Shown here in pieces: positions 31,719 to 40,468 of a stretch of 64,000 nt of DNA. Position 1 is the stretch's first letter; every line of letters starts with the position of its first letter. Below the pieces are notes generated by a model. The model did not search any database. It was not told the DNA's origin and saw only the letters and a program-made list of their open reading frames with translations. Made by a program: the position numbers and the translations under genes. Source of the stretch: Apostichopus japonicus (lineage: Eukaryota; Echinodermata; Holothuroidea; Aspidochirotida; Stichopodidae); NCBI RefSeq assembly GCF_037975245.1, contig NC_092582.1:19556577-19620576 (forward strand). Direction: 5' to 3'.

Positions 31719-34700
31719 ATGGCGCTGCTGCGAAGATCGGCGTTGTCTTTAACGCACCCCACACTGCATTATACTAGCGTCGACTTATCAGCCTTCTTAG
31801 TGCAGAGAGAAACCAGAAATGGCCGTGGGAAGCATCTCTTTATTGAACATATTTCACCAGGCGGAATTCTCCACGATGGAGGCATCAGGTAAATACTTTT
31901 CCATCTCAATAACTTTCTAATCAATTACGATCACTCATGATCGGTTGCTTTTTACAAGAGCGATTTACATTGCTTATAAGAACAGGCGAACAGTAATCAT
32001 GCTAAGTTCACCCTCTCTGTATGAATGAGAGTTTAATTGTATCTAGTCTTGGCCAAGCCGTTTGTTATACTTTTTTTATCGCGTGCAACTGTACATGCCT
32101 CAGAGTCCGTTTCTGCCTACCACGAATGTGCTTGCCCACTGTATTTTACATGCCCGAGGATCTGTCCGATTCAAACCTAGTCTTGAACATTTCTCCAAAT
32201 CGGGGCGTGACCTTATGTAAACCACAAAATCCTTATTCATATTATTATTATGAAATAATGTGTCATGTGAGATCATGTGTCTTTCACAGCAATTAGTGAC
32301 CGTCTCACAGTGTACAAACCAATCTAAGGCCAAGTGATGTTCACTGCAGGAGGTAGGGCTTGATTAAACATTTTTGGGTGAAGTGGGCCCAACTGGCAAA
32401 CCTGATTGGCTTCTTTGCTTTTCTGAAGCAAATCTTCCAAATTCAAAAGAAAACATAGCTTGGGAGAAATGTGCAAGACCCTAGTATCAATCGAAAGCGT
32501 TACCGCTGTCGTTCTCTGGGCAGTACAGCAAGTATAGATACGGGAAAATAGCTTTGGGGAAGAAAAAACTTACACTAGGCTGTTCATACTAGGATCTTAA
32601 CAAGACTAACTTGTATCTGGTTTTCCGTCCCATATAAAACTGAATAGAATGTTATTGAAGTCATTCATAAAATAATCTGGTGGGTTTGGCCGAACAGAGA
32701 AGAGAAAACAAGTTGAGAGATTGCGAAACTTTTAATCAGAGTAATTCTGTCAATAGGAAGTGAGGTCACGAGTGGACCACTGCTTAAAGAGTATTTTTGA
32801 GACGAGAAAGTTTTGGTATATAATTGAGACTGTAAATAGCAGGTTTCTGGTTTGTGAAATGTATACCTAATGATTTAATAGGGCCACCGGTGATGAATTT
32901 ACCACAATTCTTGAACAAAGCAGGAGTATCGCCATAAGTAGGACCTAAAGGGAAGGGAGATTATTTGTTATAATTTATGACCAAGCCCGAAAGTCACCTA
33001 GTATATCAAAACAGCCTGTAGGGAATTAATATCAATGTCTAAGAAAATAGTAGTATCATCAGCATACTGGGTTAATTTGAAGTGATGATTGTTAATGATT
33101 ATACCTTTAAAAGTATTACTAGCACGAACTTGGATTGGGAGAAATTCAATATTTATGATAATCAAATATCGACTCAATGGGCAATTTTGCCGTACACCTC
33201 AAATAAACCAGATGAATAATCATTATTATTAATACAGGAAGAAGGTCTCGAGTACAAAACGTTCTTTTTTCATAATTGTTTTCCTATTGTTCGTGTTACG
33301 AAAGTATGTTACTGAAGAGGGCCAGATGAAAGATTTTCATCATGAAAACCTCTACAATATTTCTCCTTTATCTATTTTATCTAGGCATTCGGATCGATTG
33401 ATTTCAGTAAACAAACTCCCTGTTGAGCAGTTCTCATTTGACCTCATCCTCGAATCGATTCGTTCTCTCTCGGTGATCGCGTTTGTAATTCTTTCATGAT
33501 TAATATATTTTTTTCTAAAACGGAACGAATTATATTTATTTCCGTATAGCCAAATTTTGTTTATTTTAGTCTTCTAATAACTAAAGACCATTTGATTTCT
33601 TTGAGAACATGAAATTACATGTCGACAGGTTCATACGTAGGAAATACACAGAAAGTTGAACAATAATAGAGATGCATAATGTTCGCCACGGCTCTCGTTC
33701 TCTCGCCTGGCTACTGGCGTACATGTCGACATATACCAATCAGTCATACCTAAATGCCAAACTTCATTAGTTTACGAGTATGTTACATTCAACACTTCTT
33801 TGAATATGATGTGTGTTATAGTGCTTTATGCCATTTGTAGCAGAACTATGATCGACAAGAGAAATAATTTGCCCATATTATCTCAGTGACAAATATATTA
33901 TCATTGGTGAATTGTCATGACACCCAATCAAGCTTTCTCTCTCCACCTCTCTGTTTTCTTCAAGGCTGTCGAAAGAAAGGTAAATGACAAAGTTGTTCCA
34001 ATTGTGGCGATCCTCGAAATCGGATTCAAATCAGGTAATTCAGGTGAAACAAGATACGGCGTCTAGAAATTTTTATGAGCTCAAAACCACGATTCGACAC
34101 AATGTTAGGTCTAAGTCATCAGAACGCGTCAATGAAATGTGTTTGTACAAACTAACAATTATAACTTAGGAAAAAACTTTCACCCCTGCCCACCACCCCG
34201 ACACCCCAAAAGTCTGAATTGTTGCCAAAATGTACTTTCGGATGCGATAATATTATATAACCATACTATTACCTTTACTCCATAAGGAACTATGGCAGGC
34301 AAATAGAGAACATAGCCCACCAACAGTATGGAACGCCGAATGTACATTTACTTTTGTGTTCTTTACAGAGTTGGTGTTGTACAAATTGTTATACCAAAAA
34401 AAAAGCGAAAAGCATAAAGGCTTAGATATATGAGGAGAACGTTTGCTGTTTAAGTTGTTTGATGATATCTACCACTATGTCATATAAATCGAGTATATAC
34501 GGTCAAAGGTAATCAGGCTGACAAGTCTAACGCAATGTCTAAAGACATAAAACGAAGTTAAGGTGTAGTTCACTGCCAATATGTAATTAAGCATATTCAG
34601 TGGTGTATAGTAACATGGCGTGTCGCCCAACTTCGCCCCTTATCATAAATTAGAAGTGTTTGTTTTTAAACATGACTTTTTGTTGACAAATGGATCAATG

Positions 34701-40468: not shown

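Follow-up and report, generated by a model that had tools for sequence, protein, structure and literature searches.

Does the sea cucumber Apostichopus japonicus possess a gene for an interleukin-1 (IL-1) ligand? The question is raised by a locus within a 64,000-nucleotide stretch of contig NC_092582.1 (the window; coordinates are counted from its first letter), for which an earlier note, made from the letters alone, had proposed an IL-1-like cytokine fused to a PDZ-like domain. According to two reviews, IL-1R-type receptors have been reported across a range from cnidarians to deuterostomes, the first IL-1 ligands are those of vertebrates or jawed vertebrates, and no IL-1 ligand gene is known or characterized in invertebrates (PMC9020223, PMC9382457), in agreement with the earlier note, which knew of no well-described invertebrate ligand. 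IL-1-like activity has nevertheless been described in echinoderms since the 1980s, without an assigned gene (PMC9020223). Our own literature search, which covered titles and the beginnings of abstracts and left most subscription journals outside its scope, found among the papers listed no report of an invertebrate IL-1 ligand gene. A candidate in a sea cucumber makes both puzzles, the origin of the ligands and the activity without a gene, directly testable. On the basis of fold prediction, sequence profiles and gene structure, the product of the gene described here is probably an IL-1 superfamily ligand with the domain layout of the fish protein nIL-1F. To the reading of the gene as an echinoderm member of the IL-1 superfamily, built of a PDZ domain, a linker and an IL-1-type β-trefoil, we assign a probability of about 0.72; the most likely mechanism, by inference, is that the protein is a cytosolic precursor from which the trefoil is freed as a receptor-binding ligand.

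Gene model and PDZ half

The gene occupies 31719..40468 on the forward strand, where seven exons, all with GT-AG borders, give 891 nt and a product of 296 residues; the intron phases are 2, 0, 1, 1, 0 and 1. The exons are as follows.

31719..31888, + strand: exon 1, residues 1-57; start codon and PDZ domain, first half; ends in phase 2; as in the NCBI protein P0001
33385..33484, + strand: exon 2, residues 57-90; PDZ domain, second half; ends in phase 0
33965..34034, + strand: exon 3, residues 91-114; conserved 11-residue stretch past the PDZ core; ends in phase 1
35186..35413, + strand: exon 4, residues 114-190; linker plus strands 1-3 of the trefoil; ends in phase 1
38812..38939, + strand: exon 5, residues 190-232; strands 4-7 of the trefoil; ends in phase 0
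39418..39532, + strand: exon 6, residues 233-271; trefoil strands 8-9 (ARFLEL, YKIES); ends in phase 1
40389..40468, + strand: exon 7, residues 271-296; trefoil strands 10-12 and stop codon

The joined exons translate to a protein that is 100% identical over all 296 residues to P0001, listed by NCBI and UniRef as 'uncharacterized protein [Apostichopus japonicus]', isoform X1; together with the GT-AG borders, this bears out the seven exons, consistent phases and length given in the earlier note, and the four motifs that it quoted all occur in the product in the order claimed. An alternative GT at 33473 would shorten exon 2 by 12 nt with the frame kept, but the NCBI protein uses 33484. The conserved stretch in exon 3 is possibly the final PDZ strand. 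The placement of the twelve trefoil strands predates the good structural model of the paralogue P0005 described below, although it was made after strands had been seen in a low-confidence model of another relative, P0008. In a crude hydropathy scan, the N-terminus shows no hydrophobic leader: no 12-residue stretch among the first 70 residues has a mean above 1.17.

The last codons of the gene derive from an insertion: a 309-bp element (40457..40765), which has terminal inverted repeats of 15 bp and is flanked by repeated ATCGAA, lies directly after codon 293 and supplies the final three codons (SGA) and the stop. The paralogues P0002 and P0003 share the SGA ending.

The PDZ-like domain claimed for the N-terminal half is recognized by Pfam: PF00595 matches residues 33-85 with 23.8 bits against a gathering score of 23.2 (E 5.8e-5). 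The same family scores 28.0-31.8 bits in the paralogues P0002-P0005, and 15.8-19.1 bits, under the cut-off, in the divergent relatives P0010-P0013. A search of PDB sequences returned PDZ chains, including those of PSD-95, NHERF3 (PDZK1) and ARHGEF11. The likeness to these adaptors lies in the PDZ sequence; to our knowledge, none of them carries an IL-1-type trefoil.

The occurrence of 14 further family proteins, 13 found by a protein search with the product and one (P0015) added by a search with a trefoil profile, indicates that the gene is more than a chance occurrence. Over the aligned part, the first 13 are 48-94% identical to the product; 12 of them come from A. japonicus, where they are spread over several contigs, of which three measure 26.8, 29.6 and 20.0 Mb. 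P0013 contains PDZ and trefoil in a single open frame of 289 residues on a 1,997-bp contig, which is too short for the introns of the present gene and therefore probably represents a spliced transcript. These relatives bear on whether the PDZ and trefoil exons have been wrongly joined from separate transcripts. The introns are long, repeats are inserted between the exons and partial duplicates lie close by, all of which could favour such an error; NCBI models on contigs of at least three lengths nevertheless join the two sets of exons, and P0013 appears to hold both in one transcript, so we consider a mis-joined model very improbable.

Affinities of the trefoil half

The trefoil of P0005 is 86.8% identical to that of the window gene, and it was for this paralogue that a fold model was made. 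AlphaFold2 predicted a β-trefoil (mean predicted local distance difference test score, pLDDT, of 60.4 in the best model), and 49 of the 50 VIA-align matches listed for this model belong to the IL-1 superfamily, with no FGF among them. The best listed matches are IL-18, IL-1β and other vertebrate members of the superfamily, at 11-16% identity in the listed alignments; the predicted trefoil matches IL-18 to 2.0 Å over 134 residues. The proposal of an IL-1-type β-trefoil is thereby supported, at the level of the predicted P0005 fold and its nearest listed structures.

One alternative is a cytosolic PDZ adaptor with a trefoil that came to look like IL-1 independently; it would bind intracellular proteins or glycans rather than act as a cytokine. 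β-trefoils recur among seemingly unrelated proteins (PMC5861070), and a Foldseek search with the model returned designed trefoils at ranks 1-9, CBM42 trefoils, FGF4 at rank 17 and FGF2 at rank 44; moreover, the Pfam IL1 family stays under its cut-off (see below). The predominance of the IL-1 superfamily among the VIA-align matches listed argues against the adaptor, as does an IL-1 profile signal that has no counterpart from FGF, and we regard this alternative as unlikely. A search of viral structures gave no match at E ≤ 0.001, insect-virus FGFs standing at ranks 2-3, and among viral contigs none of 40 pattern matches was confirmed.

The profile signal was obtained with an IL-1 profile built from nine human IL-1 superfamily proteins, the identities of which were checked against PDB names. 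Compared with the family profile, it scores 28.9 (P 6e-4), and the alignment keeps its register across the ES..xGW strand pair; the reverse comparison gives 27.0, whereas the highest of 200 column shuffles scored 19.3. As controls, the reversed family profile scores 16.4 against the IL-1 profile, and the family profile scores 9.5 against seven FGFs and 15.0 against one Kunitz inhibitor. With a hidden Markov model (HMM) of IL-1, the top scorer, P0005, reaches 16.5 bits, a value attained by none of 20,000 shuffles, while P0008 (10.6 bits) and P0001 (7.1 bits) were each reached by one shuffle in 20,000; these three of the 15 family proteins are the ones that the shuffle controls cover. On the same three proteins, an FGF HMM gives -1.6 to -1.8 bits, inside the shuffled background. 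The IL-1 HMM picks up 14 of the 15 family proteins, with single-sequence E-values from 1e-6 to 0.12, the divergent members being weakest. The signal depends on pooling: no single human IL-1 sequence reached a probability above 2% against the family profile (0/9), and only the nine combined did so. Thus, in the comparison of IL-1 and FGF profiles that the earlier note had suggested, the nearest tested profile is that of the IL-1 superfamily, and FGF remains at shuffle level.

An FGF-type growth factor is accordingly the least probable of the alternatives, and we disfavour it strongly. FGF and IL-1 do share the β-trefoil fold, their profiles match each other and FGF4 and FGF2 are both among the Foldseek matches; however, the similarity of the family to the FGF profile does not rise above shuffles, and Pfam FGF was absent from the gene product, the six isolated trefoil pieces and the ten relatives scanned. 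Another Pfam family, BetaGal_dom2 (best E 0.0088), was considered and rejected, as it matched one of the six trefoil pieces and covers only residues 145-187 in full-length P0013.

A number of results weigh against membership of the IL-1 superfamily. Only one of the five P0005 models is good, the others having mean pLDDT values of 45.8, 42.1, 34.2 and 34.1; even in the best, residues 1-144, including the PDZ part, fall below 50, and the prediction for P0008 (pLDDT 39.6) was not used for structure searching. Pfam IL1 (PF00340) does not match the gene product. Among ten relatives scanned it is seen in P0005 alone (E 0.026, 14.6 bits against a cut-off of 25), and it matches one of six isolated trefoil pieces (E 0.0094); in a control scan of nine human IL-1 proteins, eight match PF00340 and one matches IL33_bt. 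One of these nine also drew a stray AbfB match at E 0.0077, and a match of such strength is therefore weak when taken alone. The five matches of the trefoil profile to PDB sequences (best E 0.4) include no trefoil cytokine, the probability of the IL-1 to family profile match is only 28%, and the IL-1 HMM gives -0.7 to -1.6 bits for the divergent P0010-P0013. FGFs score much as the family does against the IL-1 profile (29.7 for two FGFs, 25.6 for seven), which argues for relatedness among trefoil cytokines, on the IL-1 side, and not for close kinship. A PROSITE-type IL-1 signature, in two variant forms, is found in none of the 15 family proteins; since it also fails on human members (one form, as quoted in the literature, matches none of nine, the other four), it is not decisive. 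Lastly, protein searches found no homologues beyond A. japonicus and the contig of P0013. The two profile searches scored only the 7,996 and 7,998 candidates with most shared words, and absence from other phyla is therefore not established.

Resemblance to vertebrate ligands and a possible mode of action

A study of turtle IL-1β gives the typical coding phases as II, 0, I, I, 0 and assigns all twelve strands to the final three exons (PMC4880838). The first five phases of the sea cucumber gene (2, 0, 1, 1, 0) agree with this series, as phases alone and without regard to protein positions, and are followed by an extra phase-1 intron between trefoil strands 9 and 10. Under assumed phase frequencies, and uncorrected for the additional sixth intron, agreement of the five by chance has a probability of ~0.005, which is a further point against the adaptor. 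The gene resembles vertebrate IL-1 ligands in its predicted trefoil, profile similarity and intron phases and, as judged by hydropathy only, in the want of an evident leader; it differs from them in the PDZ domain that stands in place of the propeptide, the additional intron and the missing PROSITE-type signature.

The nearest layout is found in fish. Lumpfish nIL-1F has 352 residues, an IL-1 domain together with a PDZ domain and seven coding exons, and belongs to a clade that takes in cartilaginous and lobe-finned fish (PMC7144542); no signal peptide is reported for nIL-1F (PMC7144542, PMC4929537). The earlier note, which knew of no PDZ plus IL-1 architecture, was mistaken on this point, and the existence of such a layout in fish raises, rather than lowers, the likelihood that the sea cucumber gene is a genuine relative; an independently acquired adaptor trefoil becomes correspondingly harder to sustain. 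Judged by the published description, the two share the order of PDZ and IL-1-type domains, seven coding exons with six introns and a similar length; the sea cucumber gene differs in its echinoderm host and its multi-copy family. What is new is a candidate IL-1 ligand gene in an echinoderm; the layout was already known.

Fish nIL-1F also suggests that the product may block signalling, as an IL-1 receptor antagonist-like ligand, which would be a special case of the reading preferred here. nIL-1F is reported to antagonize IL-1β in trout (PMC4929537), and for grass carp its binding to IL-1R1 is reported (PMC7144542). On the other side, there is no known invertebrate agonist IL-1 to oppose, and we hold an antagonist role to be possible, albeit tentatively.

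If the product is indeed an IL-1 superfamily ligand, a leaderless precursor would be synthesized in the cytosol, where its PDZ half might serve as a pro-region, tethering it to partners that carry a PDZ-binding motif at the C-terminus. Upon infection or injury, the trefoil could be freed via lytic death of coelomocytes, cleavage of the linker, or both. A candidate cut between D132 and I133, which would yield a trefoil fragment of 164 residues, is located as follows (the slash marks the cut).

35239..35241, + strand: codon of D132, DYAD/I in the linker; speculative caspase site, by analogy with LVAD

The analogy is with AjMLKL, which A. japonicus CASP-1 cleaves after LVAD during lytic coelomocyte death (PMC11932488); the assignment of DYAD132/I as a caspase site is speculative. 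Its linker counterparts are NVAD/I in P0010-P0012 and YQD/I in P0013, and in the most divergent relative only the D-I of the site is kept. The free trefoil would then bind to nearby cells through an IL-1R-like receptor of the Ig-TIR type, and could act there as an agonist or, like nIL-1F, as an antagonist.

A candidate ligand with a PDZ domain also suggests a possible source for the IL-1 pro-region. The PDZ plus trefoil protein might be the ancestral deuterostome IL-1 ligand, predating the split of echinoderms and chordates and kept in fish nIL-1F, in which case the propeptide exons of IL-1β (phases II, 0, I, as after the three PDZ-side exons) would be a remnant of the PDZ domain; we think this rather doubtful.

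Variant relatives, duplicated copies and other features of the window

P0009, isoform X2 of a paralogue, lacks the stretch matching exon 4, and with it the linker and trefoil strands 1-3; in the window gene this exon is in phase 1 at both ends. P0009 is possibly a decoy isoform. P0010-P0012 have charged, low-complexity C-terminal tails past the trefoil, which perhaps stem from a repeat inserted at the former stop.

Two duplicated pieces of the gene lie in the window.

27266..29935, + strand: partial, disrupted copy upstream of the gene, comprising exons 1-4; the frame changes within exon 1, and exon 4 contains an in-frame TAG
54974..55053, + strand: lone copy of exon 7, acceptor site included, inside a copy of the 3' region (54847-55672)

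The exons of the first are 85-96% identical to those of the gene, and three measured intron stretches 84-92%. No other exons of the second were found in the window by tblastn with the whole protein.

Elsewhere, open frames at 13991-18401, 46690-49728 and 53858-54385 match reverse transcriptase, endonuclease or both, as in elements of the long interspersed nuclear element (LINE) type; the matches of the frames at 17511-18401 and 53858-54385 are under the Pfam cut-off. A tandem array at 8927-9961 comprises 14.9 copies of a 70-bp unit, with a 94% match.
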